Assembly: GCF_026341515.1 (NCBI RefSeq)
Contig: NZ_JAPEOK010000001.1
Span: forward strand, 7,812,001-7,876,000
DNA from: Streptomyces sp. NBC_00878
GTDB taxonomy: Bacteria > Actinomycetota > Actinomycetes > Streptomycetales > Streptomycetaceae
Direction of reading: 5' to 3'
Length of the DNA stretch: 64,000 nucleotides
In this document: positions 33,484 to 40,358 of the stretch, piece after piece
How the letters are laid out: the number at the start of each line of letters is the position of its first letter
Position numbering within the stretch: the stretch's first letter is position 1
Translations under genes and position numbers: made by a program
Notes under the pieces: generated by a model
Databases searched by the model: none
The model's input: only the letters and a program-made list of their open reading frames with translations
Told to the model about the DNA's origin: nothing

Positions 33484-34488
33484 TCAGTCGGTCACCTCGC
33501 CCGGATACGTGACGCCGACGCGGTTCCGTACCGCGTCGAGCGTTCGCATGACGGCCAGGGTGCCGTCCAGGGGGACCAAGGGGGACTCGGTCTCGCCCGC
33601 GCGGAGGCAGCGCATGACCTCGATCGCCTCGTGCTTGAGGCCGGCGCGGGTTCCGTCGGTCGCGCTCGCGGTGAACTCCTGCGGGTCGCGGCCGTCGCGG
33701 TGCAGTATGAAGCGGTCGGCGTGAAAGAAGCCGGACGGGATGTCGATGCGGCCCTCGGAACCGGTGACGGAGGCGGAGGTCGACGTGCCGCCGACGAGAG
33801 AGCAGTGCAACGAAGCGAGAGCACCGCTCTCCCACGAGAGCAGCATTCCCGTCTGGAGATCGACGCTCTCGTCGGAGAGCACCGCTCTCGCCAGCACCTC
33901 CGAAGGCTCCCCGAGCAGCAGGTGCGCGAACGACACCGGGTAGACGCCCAGGTCCAGCAGCGCACCGCCGCCCTGCGCCGGATCGCGCAGCCGGTGGGTG
34001 GGCGGGAAGGGCCCCGAAAGACCGAAGTCGGCCTGGACCGTGCGGACCTCACCGATCGCCCCCTCGTCGACCAGGGCCTTCAGACGCCGGATCAGCGGGT
34101 TGCAGTACATCCACATGGCCTCCATCAGGAAGCTCCCGCGCTCCTTCGCGAGGCCGACCAACTCCTCCGCCTCGCGCGCGTTCAGCGTGAACGCCTTCTC
34201 GCACAGCACGTTCCGCCCCGCATCGAGACAGAGCCCGGCCGCCGCCCGGTGCGCCGAGTGCGGAGTCGCGACGTACACCACATCCACGTCCTCGTCCGTC
34301 GCGAGGGCCTCCCAGTCGCCGTACGCCCGGGATATCCCGAACCGCTCCGCGAACGCCTTCGCCGACTCCTCGGTGCGCGACGCCACCGCGACGACCTCGG
34401 CGTCCGGCAGATCGATCAGATCCGCCGTGAACGCCGCGGCGATCCCGCCGGTCGCCAGCACACCCCACCGCACGCGTTCTCCCGCCAT
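33484..34488 (-). CDS. Gfo/Idh/MocA family oxidoreductase
   Basis: NAD(P)-dependent sugar- or polyol-type dehydrogenase of 334 residues. It has the N-terminal fold VRWGVLATGGIAAAFTADL (Rossmann loop), VYVATPHSAHR, VLCEKAFTLNAREAEEL (the EKP-like motif, here EKA) and a C-terminal domain with GGALLDLGVYPVSF. ATG 34488 has a GAGGGG site. Within its coding DNA at 33800-33887 lies a 19-nt periodic motif (see findings). Confidence 0.88.
   Translation of the reverse strand: MAGERVRWGVLATGGIAAAFTADLIDLPDAEVVAVASRTEESAKAFAERFGISRAYGDWEALATDEDVDVVYVATPHSAHRAAAGLCLDAGRNVLCEKAFTLNAREAEELVGLAKERGSFLMEAMWMYCNPLIRRLKALVDEGAIGEVRTVQADFGLSGPFPPTHRLRDPAQGGGALLDLGVYPVSFAHLLLGEPSEVLARAVLSDESVDLQTGMLLSWESGALASLHCSLVGGTSTSASVTGSEGRIDIPSGFFHADRFILHRDGRDPQEFTASATDGTRAGLKHEAIEVMRCLRAGETESPLVPLDGTLAVMRTLDAVRNRVGVTYPGEVTD
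33800..33887. repeat. five GAGC-N3-GCTC-type units inside the Gfo/Idh/MocA gene
   Basis: Units start at 33800, 33819, 33838, 33858 and 33877, with spacings of 19, 19, 20 and 19. Two are perfect (GAGCACCGCTC) and the others partial (GAGCAGTGCAA, GAGCAGCATTC, GATCGACGCTC). The stretch codes for ordinary-looking residues of the oxidoreductase. The same motif and period form the intergenic array at 37150. Confidence 0.65.
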
Positions 34489-34623
34489 CCCCAACCCCTC
34501 GCTCCATGAGCACGATCACCGAGCCGGGGCCCCGAACGTGGCCGACGACTCGGACGCGATGGTCTCGACCACCTGTACGAGCTGAGAGCATAGGTGCCGT
34601 ATTCCACAAAAAGGGAGGGGCAC

Positions 34624-36018
34624 ATGTCCGAGCGTGGCCGCACCACGCGGGACCAGGACGGCCCGGAGGGGCACATACCGAGCGCGGCCGTCGCCGAGGC
34701 CGTAACCGAGACGGTCAACGAAGAGACCGCGACCGGCGCCGCCGCGACCGCCGACGCGGTGCCGCCGGTGCCGCTGCCCGTACCGCCGCCGACGGCCCGC
34801 CGTTCCGTGGGGCTCCTCGTCACCCTCGTCCTCGGCGGCCTCACCGCCGTACCGCCGCTGTCCATGGACATGTACCTCCCGGCGCTCCCGGAGGTCACCG
34901 ACGCACTGCACGCGTCCGCGGCCACCGTGCAGCTGACGCTCACCTCGTGCCTCGCCGGGATGGCGCTCGGGCAACTGGTCGTCGGCCCGATGAGCGACAA
35001 GTGGGGGCGCAGACGGCCGCTGATCGCCGGGCTGCTCGTCTACATCGTCGCCACCGCCGTGTGCGCGTTCGCGCCCACCATCGAACTCCTCGTCGCCTTC
35101 CGGCTGCTCCAGGGCCTCGCGGGCGCCGCCGGAATCGTGATCGCCCGGGCCGTCGTACGCGACCTCTACGACGGCGTCGACATGGCCCGCTTCTTCTCCA
35201 CGCTCATGCTCATCTCCGGGGTCGCGCCGATCATCGCGCCGCTCATCGGCGGACAGGTACTGCGGATCACCGACTGGCGAGGCGTCTTCTACATCCTCAC
35301 CGCCGTCGGTGTCGTACTGACCGTCGTCGTCTGGCGGATGCTGCCCGAGACGCTCGCGCCCGAGCACCGCCACAGCGGCGGCACCGTCGAAGCGCTGCGC
35401 ACCATGCGGGGACTGCTCGCCGACCGCGTCTTCACCGGCTACATGCTCACCGGCGGCTTCGCGTTCGCGGCGCTCTTCGCGTACATCTCGGCCTCGCCGT
35501 TCGTGGTCCAGGAGATCTACGGCGCCTCCCCGCAGACGTACAGCATCCTCTTCGGCGTCAACTCCATCGGCCTCGTGGCCGTCGGCCAGATCAACGGCAA
35601 ACTGCTCGTCGGCCGGGTCAGCCTCGACAAGGTCCTCTCCGTCGGCCTCGCGATCATCACCACCGCCTCGGCCGCGCTGCTGCTGATGGCGAGCGGGGTC
35701 TTCGGCGAGGTCGGCCTCGTCCCGATCGCCGTCGGCCTGTTCGTCCTCATGTCCGCGATGACCCTGTGCATGCCCAACACCAACGCGCTCGCCCTCATGC
35801 GCACCCGGCACGCCGCGGGCTCCGCCTCCGCGCTGCTCGGTACGTCCTCCTTCCTCGTCGGCGCGCTCGCCACACCCCTGGTCGGCATCGCAGGTGAGCA
35901 CACCGCGGTCCCGATGGCCGTCGTCCAACTGGCGTGTTCACTGGTGGCCGTCGGCTGCTTCGTGGGACTGTGCCGTCCCTGGCGGATACAGGCGGACGCG
36001 AAGGGAGTGGCGAGCTGA
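34624..36018 (+). CDS. MFS drug exporter, Bcr/CflA type
   Basis: A 464-residue transporter with 12 hydrophobic segments after an Ala/Pro/Glu-rich N-terminal extension of about 60 residues. VLGGLTAVPPLSMDMYLPALP, TSCLAGMALGQLVVGPMSDKWGRRRPL and ARAVVRDLYDG are Bcr/CflA-type motifs. ATG 34624 has a GGGAGGGG site. The extension, rich in Thr/Ala/Pro, is unusual for the family. It overlaps the downstream hydrolase start region by a few bases. Confidence 0.9.
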   Translation: MSERGRTTRDQDGPEGHIPSAAVAEAVTETVNEETATGAAATADAVPPVPLPVPPPTARRSVGLLVTLVLGGLTAVPPLSMDMYLPALPEVTDALHASAATVQLTLTSCLAGMALGQLVVGPMSDKWGRRRPLIAGLLVYIVATAVCAFAPTIELLVAFRLLQGLAGAAGIVIARAVVRDLYDGVDMARFFSTLMLISGVAPIIAPLIGGQVLRITDWRGVFYILTAVGVVLTVVVWRMLPETLAPEHRHSGGTVEALRTMRGLLADRVFTGYMLTGGFAFAALFAYISASPFVVQEIYGASPQTYSILFGVNSIGLVAVGQINGKLLVGRVSLDKVLSVGLAIITTASAALLLMASGVFGEVGLVPIAVGLFVLMSAMTLCMPNTNALALMRTRHAAGSASALLGTSSFLVGALATPLVGIAGEHTAVPMAVVQLACSLVAVGCFVGLCRPWRIQADAKGVAS

Positions 36019-37151
36019 GCGCACCGCGACTGCGCCCCGGCACACCGGAACGAGCCGGGCTGGACCCCGGCGAACTGGACCGTCTCGTACGGGAGTTCCG
36101 GCGGCTCACCGACGGGGACCGGCCCTGGGCCGCGGGCGCCGTACTGGTCGCCGGACGCGGACCCGTGATCGCCGTCGAGGAGGCGGTGGGGTGGGCCGTG
36201 CGGTACGCCGCCTACGACGAGGCGACCGACACGGGTGTGGAGCTGGCGCGCGAGGCCCGCGTCCCGATGACCGCGGACACCGTCTTCGACCTGGCGTCCC
36301 TCACGAAGCTCTTCACGACCGTGGCCGCGGCGCAGCAGCTGGAGCGCGGCACACTCGGCGTCGACGCGCGGGTCGGAGCGTATCTGCCGGACTTCGTCGC
36401 GGCCGTCGAGTACGGGATCACCGTGCGGCACCTGCTCACCCACACCTCCGGGCTGCGGCCCGAACTCCCGCTGTACGACTGCCGGGACAGCAGGGCGCGG
36501 CTCGCCCTGCTGCGGGCCGAGCGGCCGCTGACTCCGCCGGGCGAGGTGTACGGCTACTCGGACCTCAACATGCTGCTCCTCCAGCACGTTCTGGAACGGA
36601 TCACCCGGAGCCCGCTGGACGTCCTCGTCCGGGACGGCATCACCCGGCCGCTCGGGATGACGGCCACCGCGTTCGGACCCTGCCCGGGCGCGGCCGCGAC
36701 CGAGGACCAGCGACGGCCCTGGGCCAAGGCGGACCGGGGGATGCTGCGGGGCGAGGTCCACGACGAGAACGCCTGGGCGCTCGGCGGCGTCGCCGGTCAC
36801 GCCGGCCTCTTCTCGACGGCGGGCGATCTGGCGGTCTTCTGCCGCACGCTGCTGGCGGGCGGTTCCTACGGCACCGCCCGCATCCTCGGCCCCGACCACG
36901 TCGAACTCCTCCTCTCACCGCCCGGCCTCGGCTTCGCCCTCGACCAGCCCTGGTTCATGGGCGACCTCGCCGGCCACGGCGCCGCGGGCCACACGGGCTT
37001 CACGGGTACGTCACTGGTGCTGGACCCGTCGACGGACACGTTCCTGGTACTCCTGGCGAACACGGTCCACCCGCGCCGCAGGCCCCCGGACAACGGCCCC
37101 CGGGCGAGGGCGGGGACGTGGCTGGCGCGGGCGGTACGGGGGGTGGCGTGA
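36015..37151 (+). CDS. beta-lactamase-fold serine hydrolase
   Basis: A class C beta-lactamase/esterase-like protein of 378 residues with DLASLTKLFTT (Ser-x2-Lys), YGYSDLNM (Tyr-Ser-x equivalent) and HTGFTGTS near the C terminus. No signal peptide is obvious, so it is probably cytosolic. The start is uncertain: the frame runs through upstream GTG codons (35934, 35970), but a perfect AAGGGAG site lies 7 nt before a CTG at 36015 whose second base begins the upstream stop (CTGA), like the usual ATGA/GTGA coupling. I chose CTG 36015. Confidence 0.75.
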   Translation: MSAPRLRPGTPERAGLDPGELDRLVREFRRLTDGDRPWAAGAVLVAGRGPVIAVEEAVGWAVRYAAYDEATDTGVELAREARVPMTADTVFDLASLTKLFTTVAAAQQLERGTLGVDARVGAYLPDFVAAVEYGITVRHLLTHTSGLRPELPLYDCRDSRARLALLRAERPLTPPGEVYGYSDLNMLLLQHVLERITRSPLDVLVRDGITRPLGMTATAFGPCPGAAATEDQRRPWAKADRGMLRGEVHDENAWALGGVAGHAGLFSTAGDLAVFCRTLLAGGSYGTARILGPDHVELLLSPPGLGFALDQPWFMGDLAGHGAAGHTGFTGTSLVLDPSTDTFLVLLANTVHPRRRPPDNGPRARAGTWLARAVRGVA

Positions 37152-37415
37152 GCGGGGCGTGTCATGGTGAGCGGGGCTCTGATTTGTGAGCGGCGCTCCG
37201 GCCGGAGAGCAGTGCTCTGACATGTGAGCGGCGCTCTGGGCCGTGATCAGTGTTCTCGATGGTCGGCACCGCGCTGGTTCGTGAGCGATGTTCTGACGCG
37301 TGAGCAGCGCTCCGGGTTGTGGTCAGTGCTCTCGACAGGCGGTGCCGCGTGCATTTGTGAGCAGTGCTCCCGTGCGTGATCACTGCTCTCTTCTGTGAGC
37401 GCTGCTCACCCGGCT
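37150..37415. repeat. 14-unit 19-nt palindromic tandem array
   Basis: Fourteen units start every 19 nt from 37150 to 37397. The consensus core is GAGC-N3-GCTC, for example GAGCAGTGCTC (37207, 37359), GAGCGGCGCTC (37188, 37226), GAGCGCTGCTC (37397). Variants replace one arm base (GATC, GGTC, TTC). The units at 37264 and 37340 lost the core but kept the spacing and resemble each other (CGGCACCGCGC, CGGTGCCGCGT, 76 nt apart). The array fills the gap between the beta-lactamase-fold hydrolase and the Rsm22-like gene and reaches 30 bp from the latter's start. Confidence 0.9.
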
Positions 37416-37444
37416 CACTCCGGCGCCCCTCGTAGAATTCCCCC

Positions 37445-38515
37445 GTGACCGCCCCAGTTTCCCGACTCTCCCCAGCTGAGACCCTGCGCGTGGCCCTGGC
37501 GGGGCTGCTCGACGGGCTGCCGCCGAAAGCGGCCGCGCAGGCCGTCGAGCGGCTGATCGCGAACTATCGGGGGATCACCCCGACCGACGCCCCGATCCTG
37601 CGCGACCGCGCGGACGTGGCCGCGTACGCCGCGTACCGGATGCCCGCGACCTTCGAGGCGGTGCGGGCCGCGCTCGACGCCTTCGCGGACGTCGTGCCGG
37701 AATGGGCGCCGGGCAGTCAGGTGGACATCGGCGGCGGGACGGGCGCGGCGACCTGGGCCGTGAACGCCACCTGGCCCGAGGAGCGGCCGGTGACCGTGCT
37801 CGACTGGGCCGAACCCGCACTCGCCCTCGGCCGTGAACTCGCCTCGCGGAACCCGTTGTTGAAGTCGGCCGAGTGGCACCGCTCTCGTATCGGAGCGGCG
37901 CTCACTATCGAGAGCACTGATCTCGTCACGGTGTCGTACGTCCTCGGCGAGCTCACCGAGCAGGCCCGCTCAGCCGTCGTGGACGCCGCCGCGACCGCCG
38001 CCCAGGCCGTCGTGATCATCGAGCCCGGCACACCGGACGGATACGCCCGCGTCATCGAGGCCCGCGACCGGCTCATCGGCGCCGGCTTCCGCATCGCCGC
38101 CCCCTGCCCGCACAGCGCCGCCTGCCCGATCGTCCCCGGCGAGGACTGGTGTCACTTCTCGGCCCGGGTCAGCCGTTCCTCGCTGCACCGGCAGGTCAAG
38201 GGCGGCTCACTGGCGTACGAGGACGAGAAGTTCAGCTACGTCGCCGCCGCCCGCTTCCCAGCGACCTCCATCTCGACCTCGACTTCCGCCCCCGTCCCCG
38301 CCCCGTCCCGGGTCGTACGGCGGCCGCAGGTCCGTAAGGGGCAGGTGCTCCTCGACCTGTGCGAGGCCGAGGAGCAGTTGCGCCGCTCGACCGTGACGAA
38401 GCGCCACGGCCTCCTCTACAAAGCGGCCCGCGACGCGGACTGGGGCGACGCCTGGCCGCCGACGGCCCTCGCCGAACCCGCTGAGCCTTCCGGGCCCGCC
38501 GGGTCCTCGGACTAA
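37445..38515 (+). CDS. Rsm22-like SAM-dependent methyltransferase
   Basis: A 356-residue methyltransferase of the small-ribosomal-subunit Rsm22 family. It has the SAM site VDIGGGTGAATWAV (about residues 93-106), VLDWAEPALALG, LVTVSYVLGEL and four cysteines in APCPHSAACP and GEDWCHFSARV that fit a metal or Fe-S site of this family. A Ser/Thr/Pro stretch precedes the C-terminal KRHGLLYKAARDADWGD. GTG 37445 has little upstream signal other than the array. Coding bases 37874-37922 hold three more units of the 19-nt motif. Confidence 0.85.
   Translation: MTAPVSRLSPAETLRVALAGLLDGLPPKAAAQAVERLIANYRGITPTDAPILRDRADVAAYAAYRMPATFEAVRAALDAFADVVPEWAPGSQVDIGGGTGAATWAVNATWPEERPVTVLDWAEPALALGRELASRNPLLKSAEWHRSRIGAALTIESTDLVTVSYVLGELTEQARSAVVDAAATAAQAVVIIEPGTPDGYARVIEARDRLIGAGFRIAAPCPHSAACPIVPGEDWCHFSARVSRSSLHRQVKGGSLAYEDEKFSYVAAARFPATSISTSTSAPVPAPSRVVRRPQVRKGQVLLDLCEAEEQLRRSTVTKRHGLLYKAARDADWGDAWPPTALAEPAEPSGPAGSSD
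37874..37922. repeat. three 19-nt-spaced motif units inside the Rsm22-like gene
   Basis: Units at 37874 (TGGCACCGCTC, partial), 37893 (GAGCGGCGCTC, perfect) and 37912 (GAGCACTGATC, partial) have the same 19-nt spacing as the array upstream, but within codons for SRIGAALTIESTDLV. Confidence 0.6.
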
Positions 38516-38683: not shown

Positions 38684-38759
38684 GCCCGGTGCGGCAGCAG
38701 GGCCCCGGTACGGCAGCGGAGCCCCGATACGGCAGCGGAGCCCCGATACGGCAGCAGGG
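38684..38759. repeat. four-unit 19-nt tandem repeat downstream of the Rsm22-like gene
   Basis: Four 19-nt units (about CCCCGATACGGCAGCGGAG) run from 38684 to 38759, with a few substitutions between them. The sequence is unrelated to the 37150 array but has the same period. It leads directly into a strong terminator hairpin. Confidence 0.85.
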
Positions 38760-38790
38760 CCCGGACCGCTCGTCGCGGTCCGGGCCCTGC
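38754..38790. terminator. strong bidirectional terminator hairpin
   Basis: GCAGGGCCCGGACCGC and its exact complement (16-bp arms) around a 5-nt loop, between the convergent Rsm22-like and DUF6243 genes. No T tract is needed for a GC stem of this strength. Confidence 0.8.
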
Positions 38791-39038: not shown

Positions 39039-39271
39039 GGGTTCTCCCGGTAGTGAAGTGAAGTGATCTACGGATTCATCGGTGGGGGACGGGCGGCGAC
39101 GTCGAAGGACGTCAGCAGGGGCCCGTCACGCTCTCACTCGTAAATCGGCGTCTGGAAGAACATGGCAAAGACGTTACCCGGTTCCGTCGGCCCCGCACAC
39201 CAACCTTTTCGCCGCCCCGGCATCGGCCGGGCCTTCGGCGAGCGTCTGGGGTCAACTGATTCTGTCGCTGT

Positions 39272-39562: not shown

Positions 39563-39592
39563 GACAGGTCTCCTCTCGCTCTGCGACTCACC

Positions 39593-39622
39593 TTGTGTAT
39601 CGCCTTGTGTATCGCCTTGCGT
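39593..39622. repeat. 12-nt direct repeat, three copies
   Basis: CTTGTGTATCGC occurs twice in succession and a third copy has CTTGCGTA. It lies in the divergent gap between the DUF6243-like and TetR genes, next to the palindromes at 39625. Confidence 0.6.
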
Positions 39623-39624
39623 AA

Positions 39625-39680
39625 CGAGACGGTTCGTCTCGAATATGTCTCATCACTGTCCGGCGAGACGTACCGTCTTG
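39625..39680. promoter_or_regulatory. two CGAGACG-N3-CGTCTCG dyads, TetR operator candidates
   Basis: CGAGACGGTTCGTCTCG (39625-39641) is perfect and CGAGACGTACCGTCTTG (39664-39680) has one mismatch; they start 39 nt apart, upstream of the TetR start at 39702. Two equal dyads in an autoregulated TetR promoter are the likeliest explanation. Confidence 0.7.
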
Positions 39681-39701
39681 TCAACCTGATAAATTCGACG
39701 C

Positions 39702-40358
39702 ATGGCCCAAAAGTCCGCCCAGCCCCCGCAGAAGTCCGCCCCCGACTCCAGTCGCCGCAGCGAGAAGTCCCGCCGCGCGATCTACGACGCCGCCCTCGCC
39801 CTCGTGTCCGAGATCGGTTACCCCAAGACCACCATCGAGGGCATCGCCGCACGCGCGGGCGTCGGCAAGCAGACGATCTACCGGTGGTGGTCGTCGAAGG
39901 CCGACGTCCTGCTGGAGGCGTTCATCGATCTGAGCGCCCAGGCGGCGGAGGCGGCCGCCCGGCCGGAGGTCATCGGGGAGCAGGCGATGTACGAGATCCC
40001 CGATACCGGCGATCTGGAAGCCGACCTCAAGCTCGTGCTGAGGGCCACGGTCGACGAACTGCTCGACCCCAAGTTCGAGGCCCCGTCACGGGCTCTGGCC
40101 GCCGAGGGCGTCGTCAACGAAGAGGTCGGCCGGGAGTTCGTCGGCAAACTCCTCGAACCCCAGCTCCAGTTGTACGTGAAGCGCCTGCGGTCCGCCCAGG
40201 AACAGGGCGCTGTGCGCGCCGACATCGACCCGCGCATCGCCCTGGAACTCTTCGTCTCGCCGCTCGCCCAGCGCTGGCTCCAGTACACGGGCCCCATCAC
40301 GTACGAGTACACGGACAAGCTCGTCGAGTACGCCCTCCACGGCCTCGCCCCGCGCTGA
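39702..40358 (+). CDS. TetR-family transcriptional regulator
   Basis: A 218-residue repressor with the helix-turn-helix RAIYDAALALVSEIGYPKTT and IAARAGVGKQTIYRWWSSKA (residues about 22-66) and a TetR_C-type ligand domain (ALAAEGVVNEEVGREFVGKL and FVSPLAQRWLQYTGPI). It is divergent from the DUF6243-like gene, and two matching dyads lie in its promoter, so it probably represses itself and that neighbour. Ligand unknown. Confidence 0.9.
   Translation: MAQKSAQPPQKSAPDSSRRSEKSRRAIYDAALALVSEIGYPKTTIEGIAARAGVGKQTIYRWWSSKADVLLEAFIDLSAQAAEAAARPEVIGEQAMYEIPDTGDLEADLKLVLRATVDELLDPKFEAPSRALAAEGVVNEEVGREFVGKLLEPQLQLYVKRLRSAQEQGAVRADIDPRIALELFVSPLAQRWLQYTGPITYEYTDKLVEYALHGLAPR

Follow-up and report, generated by a model that had tools for sequence, protein, structure and literature searches.

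The window, i.e. the whole stretch of DNA analysed (64,000 nucleotides, C1:7812001-7876000), belongs to the 11.1-Mb genome of Streptomyces sp. NBC_00878. It harbors a tandem array between the genes for a beta-lactamase-fold serine hydrolase and an rsm22-like methyltransferase (Table 1). Each unit comprises a 15-bp dyad, GAGAGCRSYGCTCTC, and a 4-bp linker, and the unit starts follow 37150 + 19n. GAGC-N3-GCTC is intact in seven of the 14 units (37169, 37188, 37207, 37226, 37302, 37359 and 37397). Five further units (37245, 37283, 37321, 37378 and 37150) have one or two core changes, with both changes of unit 37150 confined to the right arm. The dyad is lost in units 37264 (three changes) and 37340 (five changes), which remain in register. 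In an eight-unit period scan of the window, the period of 19 reached 58/64 versus at most 37/64 anywhere for other periods of 15-29. The initial annotation, made from the letters and the open reading frames, had described 14 units at an exact 19-nt period, a core kept to varying degree in 12 of them and two units without core at the same spacing, all of which was borne out. With a matrix derived from promoters elsewhere, a single phase holds ten array sites above 9 bits; 2000 dinucleotide shuffles of 37000-37500 gave a maximum of one site per phase. Across the units, the arms are kept, and centre and linkers are variable.

Table 1. Array, related site clusters and genes. Positions refer to the window unless prefixed by C1, G or L.
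Feature	Position	Strand	Remarks
Gfo/Idh/MocA oxidoreductase gene	33484..34494	-	carries intragenic cluster
Intragenic Gfo/Idh cluster	33798..33889		cores 33800 (weak), 33819, 33858, 33877; taken as real (33800-33887)
Bcr/CflA-type MFS transporter gene	34594..36018	+	control; between clusters; no phased pair inside
Beta-lactamase-fold serine hydrolase gene (PF00144)	35934..37151	+	control; ends at first array unit
Tandem 19-bp array, 14 units	37150..37415	none	from sequence, period scan and matrix; taken as real
Array sites >9 bits	37169, 37188, 37207, 37226, 37245, 37302, 37321, 37359, 37378, 37397		
TAGAAT, putative -10 of leaderless rsm22 promoter	37433..37438	+	6 nt before GTG start
rsm22-like methyltransferase gene (PF09243)	37445..38515	+	
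Phased pair inside rsm22 coding sequence	37891..37924		cores 37893, 37912; taken as real (37893-37922)
Cluster, XdhC-type gene	C1:2157624		outside window; taken as real
Cluster, NIT-domain sensor kinase gene	C1:3465567		outside window; taken as real
Cluster at regulator gene	C1:9867110-9867230		outside window; taken as real
TetR/AcrR-family regulator gene, TetR_C_33	G000:C1:9867255-9867995		about 2.0 Mb from array
Long-array loci in other genomes	L157-L159, L161-L163, L166-L168		genomes G021, G047, G050

A tandem-repeat finder reported periods of 38 and 76 bp for the array. A 76-bp block duplication was unsupported: units four positions apart had a centre and linker identity of 0.47 versus 0.42 in column shuffles, and 209 of 2000 shuffles were equally high. 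Another 19-nt direct repeat, CGGCAGCAGAGCCCCGATA, is located 3' of rsm22 (38692-38762; 3.7 copies, about 90% alike). Its period equals that of the array, and it has no dyad.

The last array core (37397-37407) ends 25 bp 5' of a TAGAAT hexamer, which, judged from its sequence and position, may represent the -10 element of a leaderless rsm22 promoter. Among 25 of the 78 relatives, 19 have TAGAAT near the rsm22 start. A consensus promoter scan of 37050-37500 yielded no promoter-like site. The gap upstream of rsm22 was inspected in 78 relatives, with two of the 80 left out for want of upstream sequence. At least two sites above 9 bits were found in one relative (L063, seven sites), at least one in four. 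A looser count gave four sites in L065, and L046 carries a comparable array 5' of a different gene. The initial annotation had proposed these orthologous gaps as one of several places to look. A long array is rare there in relatives; phased clusters are present elsewhere.

Candidate regulator and its promoter sites

The TetR_C_33 regulator gene is divergent from a gene for a deazaflavin-dependent (F420-type) reductase, and phased sites lie between the two. The protein matches TetR_N with 48.3 bits (cut-off 24) and TetR_C_33 with 90.7 bits (cut-off 26.8). A match was obtained in 133 of 150 genomes, the own genome included, at E <=1e-30, a threshold which also admits paralogs. A fold search with the predicted model identified TetR-family proteins as closest solved structures. 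The model has a mean pLDDT of 86, and its last helix ends at residue 224. Past residue 230 the pLDDT is below 50, so the predicted structure is silent on the role of the tail.

The matrix was built from 133 sites in 30 regulator promoters, the first set of orthologues taken, one of which is from the window's own genome. All 30 promoters contain at least two sites with at most one mismatch, and 29 a site pair spaced 19 or 38 bp. The regulator's own promoter carries the array-type dyad across orthologues (30/30). The matrix revealed a 15-bp dyad whose R-S-Y centre was not imposed by the choice of training sites. Nine window matches exceed 13 bits, and each belongs to the array, the Gfo/Idh cluster or the rsm22 pair; outside these three clusters the top score is 12.4 bits. 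Single matches of 10-12.5 bits outside the clusters are located at 39058, 42450, 51106 and 63823.

Distances between strong sites were determined for two sets of regulator loci, both picked by the regulator protein only and not for 19-bp pairs. The first set gave 19 (52 times), 53 (22), 38 (21), 57 (12) and 56 (10), with the rest at 7 or fewer; the second gave 19 (54 times), 38 (15), 53 (14) and 57 (12), with the rest at 6 or fewer. No array was found near the genes of 15 more distant regulator paralogs from 11 genomes. At these loci two matches (18 and 12 bits) are about 1 kb off, and all others are below 10 bits.

A TetR_C_11 gene at 39702 was considered as local source of the array binder and rejected: no site above 5 bits occurs in the 300 bp upstream, and its own upstream palindrome differs from the array motif. 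The region 39591-39681 contains three 12-nt repeats and two ACGAGACGGTTCGTCTCG-type dyads (39624-39641 and 39664-39681), by their sequence probably the gene's own operators.

Site rows inside genes

Two further phased clusters, inside the Gfo/Idh and rsm22 genes, share the array motif and were absent from the initial annotation. In 80 relatives' loci, collected through rsm22 similarity alone, these sites occupy homologous codons. The constraint was assayed by shuffling synonymous codons within each gene (n=200), scoring the best pair anywhere in the gene. None of the 200 shuffles reached the observed pair in 27 of the 59 Gfo/Idh orthologs and 38 of the 80 rsm22 orthologs, versus 1 of 66 for the MFS transporter, 0 of 67 for the hydrolase and 0 of 62 for TetR_C_11. 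The hydrolase gene of the window has no strong phased pair inside. In many relatives, the choice among synonymous codons maintains the intragenic Gfo/Idh and rsm22 sites. Altogether, four genes have site rows at homologous codons, a pattern shared by many relatives and missing from others. The maintenance of small site rows inside unrelated genes of many related species suggests a shared function.

Distribution in the genome and the genus

Phased pairs with up to two mismatches number 32 per strand in the whole genome versus 14 for the reversed control, so some of these places are due to chance; clusters were taken as real by their scores or their relatives (Table 1). A single-site profile, with which 150 of 5950 first-look candidates were scored, returned 31 matches (best E 0.04) and about eight loci at E <=2, including the new C1:9461203 and C1:3169014, and further scattered single sites are therefore possible. 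A dnaA search placed its best match at 5.38 Mb, with site loci on either side.

Exact phased pairs were detected in 53 of 150 genomes (reversed control 0/150) and, in a search of 119 genomes, in 37 of the 104 from the genus and in none of the 15 from other genera in the order (reversed control 1/119); both counts, 53/150 and 37/119, contain false matches, since by eye some exact pairs form long hairpins, GAGCGCCGCTC-loop-GAGCGGCGCTC (G006, G039, G071, G210, G252, G294), probably terminators and not operator pairs. Arrays of 8-15 sites are present in three other Streptomyces genomes. Some of their neighbours are Hen1 RNA-repair, HAD-hydrolase, cytochrome bd, metallo-beta-lactamase-fold and peptidase M1 genes. 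Turnover of the long arrays seems likely; the short intragenic rows persist in many lineages and have disappeared from others. The initial annotation had reserved the reading as a local slip-replication oddity for an array without counterparts; other 19-nt phased clusters exist in both genome and genus. A literature search, mostly at the level of titles and abstract openings and with few subscription journals, found no report on the motif or such arrays. The initial annotation knew of no Streptomyces box (LexA, DasR, BldD, CebR, Zur, DmdR) matching the motif.

Co-variation of sites and regulator variants

A site was counted as present at a score above 20 in Gfo/Idh and above 15 in rsm22, cut-offs set after the scores had been seen. 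Among 59 genomes, 24 have both sites, 2 and 1 a single one, and 32 neither. The site scores show a rank correlation of 0.77. Both traits changed 13 times each on a protein tree of MFS transporter and hydrolase (58 rows). With kinship considered, five of seven well-supported independent pairs were concordant and none discordant (p 0.06). Sites in the XdhC gene, 5.7 Mb away, were found in 13 of 15 site-rich versus 3 of 15 site-poor genomes (p 7e-5), where 3 of the 30 best XdhC matches (74-78% identity) may be paralogs. For the NIT-kinase sites, 4.4 Mb away, the association is weaker (11/15 versus 6/15, p 0.003). At both genes a site was counted when at most 3 of 300 shuffles were as good. The co-variation of such distant sites implies a trans-acting factor, as cis effects offer no easy explanation. 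Site number in the regulator promoter and the two intragenic scores are correlated (rank correlations 0.66 and 0.62, 30 genomes).

The mere presence of the regulator does not predict the intragenic sites: sites in both Gfo/Idh and rsm22 occur in 21 of 40 genomes that have it and in 3 of 9 that lack it (p 0.46). Eight genomes with sites yielded no ortholog (L065, L089, L121, G022, G026, G032, G050, G079), among them assemblies with a completeness of 82% (G050) and 78% (G079). L050 and L055, the two closest relatives on the MFS-hydrolase tree, both have no regulator ortholog at 1e-40. In L055 both Gfo/Idh and rsm22 carry weak sites; in L050 the rsm22 pair is gone and a strong Gfo/Idh pair remains.

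The sequence of the regulator is a better guide than its presence. The Gfo/Idh site state requires three changes on the regulator tree (30 rows; at least four in 200 label shuffles) and seven on a tree of four local genes (30 rows; at least five in shuffles, mean 8.6). A C-terminal VGLV[YFLV] tail, chosen after inspection of the first set, is present in that set in 17 of the 20 regulators classed as site-rich and in none of the 11 classed as site-poor. In a second set of 26 genomes, from which three overlapping the first had been removed, it occurred in 13 of 17 genomes with exact pairs versus 0 of 9 without (p 0.0005). Considering kinship, three pairs were concordant and none discordant (p 0.25). 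Residues near 154, associated in the first set, were dropped, as the second was not significant (p 0.19). Judged from sequences, the link between the sites and the TetR_C_33 regulator is strong but not closed, and this regulator is the likely binder of the array.

Proposed function and alternatives

The array is probably a tandem operator of the TetR/AcrR-family TetR_C_33 regulator, occupied by side-by-side dimers at the rsm22 promoter. Each dimer would cover one 15-bp dyad. The 19-bp step would set adjacent dimers side by side with a turn of about 290 degrees per step, a fixed placement which would make cooperative binding as a filament possible. This filament would abut the -35 region of the putative leaderless promoter and keep RNA polymerase off. 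The rsm22 pair and the Gfo/Idh cluster may provide an extra roadblock or bridging contacts, and the regulator would control itself via an array of like kind. Of the roles listed in the initial annotation, a DNA-binding-site array and a cooperative oligomeric regulator are supported by the phasing of the dyads, the conservation of their arms and a candidate protein with array-type sites in its own promoter.

An unlikely alternative is a positional marker: the regulator would label few chromosomal places, similar to RefZ or SlmA, and act on division or chromosome layout via filaments. The genome indeed has few phased clusters, flanking dnaA on both sides, and sites at homologous codons of unrelated genes recur in many relatives; RefZ is a TetR-family protein with five motifs at positions conserved across a genus (PMC6657595). 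However, the regulator gene has a metabolic neighbour and promoter sites of the classical kind, the long arrays are intergenic and located at differing genes in differing genomes, the SlmA model reaches 19.2 bits against a cut-off of 120, and RefZ comes only 27th in the search of solved folds (E 1e-3). It is rather unlikely as well that the regulator forms a genus-wide TetR-type filament system reading phased arrays which codon choice maintains at fixed places within unrelated genes, with a RefZ-like role in chromosome layout or sporulation septation of Streptomyces and a C-terminal tail tuning filament growth and hence the site-rich or site-poor state. Binding of the array by another protein of shared motif, not an ortholog of TetR_C_33, is quite unlikely. 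It would account for the eight genomes with sites and no ortholog found and for the failure of ortholog presence to predict sites, but site state and exact pairs track the variants of the TetR_C_33 regulator, paralogs from such genomes have no motif upstream, and the local TetR_C_11 gene has another palindrome.

That the long arrays are a titration sink, soaking up the regulator to set a threshold for other targets without control of rsm22, is doubtful. Their differing places between genomes agree with it, as does the correlation of promoter site number with intragenic scores, yet a sink needs neither conserved intragenic places nor a promoter location. A neutral tandem repeat from slippage is very improbable: although long arrays are rare in the rsm22 gap and periods of 38 and 76 bp were reported, the arms are conserved with variable centre and linkers, the R-S-Y centre is common to promoters elsewhere, and intragenic sites are held by codon choice. 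The initial annotation had also considered a mobile repeat, of which there is no sign, as centre and linkers vary from unit to unit, and a processed RNA. The array has a low folding energy (z -3.8), which successive dyads produce on their own, and genes of either strand harbor the intragenic clusters. An Rfam search gave no match over the array at E <=1; its one match lies outside, at 37827-37872, below threshold (22.6 bits, cut-off 37), and the processed RNA was rejected.

Comparison with known systems

TetR-type operators are usually pictured as one or two dimer sites per promoter. The tandem operator proposed for the TetR_C_33 regulator differs in having up to 14 sites in exact register. 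In addition, short rows are held by codon choice in four unrelated genes and change together with the variants of one regulator. It offers a natural case for the evolution of cooperative arrays, and the role of intragenic sites in actinobacteria becomes testable with one protein and one deletion. EthR is reportedly an octamer, with TetR-family molecules stacked cooperatively on one long operator of about 55 bp. Cooperative TetR-family stacking on one operator is predicted here too. To our knowledge, no genus-wide intragenic sites are known for EthR.

By sequence, the nearest solved structures to the regulator are Rv1816 of M. tuberculosis (PDB 5d1r, E 5e-38) and SCO4313 (2oi8, E 2e-32), and the fold search with the predicted model gave these two as nearest, too (E 3e-12 and E 4e-9, respectively). 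Among the papers listed for Rv1816, none points to an operator array, and a search for SCO4313 found no paper. Functionally, RefZ and SlmA come nearest, though the regulator is not assigned to either system. The curated SlmA model did not match the regulator above its cut-off. SlmA of E. coli has 24-52 scattered sites and binds as a dimer of dimers, with further dimers perhaps beside the site (PMC4726725). The regulator shares the TetR family with SlmA; unlike SlmA, it is associated with few phased clusters. RefZ of Bacillus is likewise of the TetR family and has few near-palindromic sites (RBM motifs) on both chromosome arms at genus-conserved positions (PMC6657595), a distribution which the present one may resemble. 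RefZ and the regulator fall into different sequence groups, and the latter is associated with tandem arrays and with promoter sites next to a metabolic gene. QacR, CgmR, Ms6564 and CprB are TetR-family proteins binding as dimer of dimers, cooperatively in QacR and CprB; dimer-of-dimers operators span 22-32 bp and single-dimer operators 15-17 bp (PMC4150764). With these four the regulator shares the TetR-family fold and, as predicted, more than one dimer per DNA stretch. In contrast to their operators, the dyads here have the single-dimer length of 15 bp, are repeated up to 14 times at 19 bp and are accompanied by intragenic sites.
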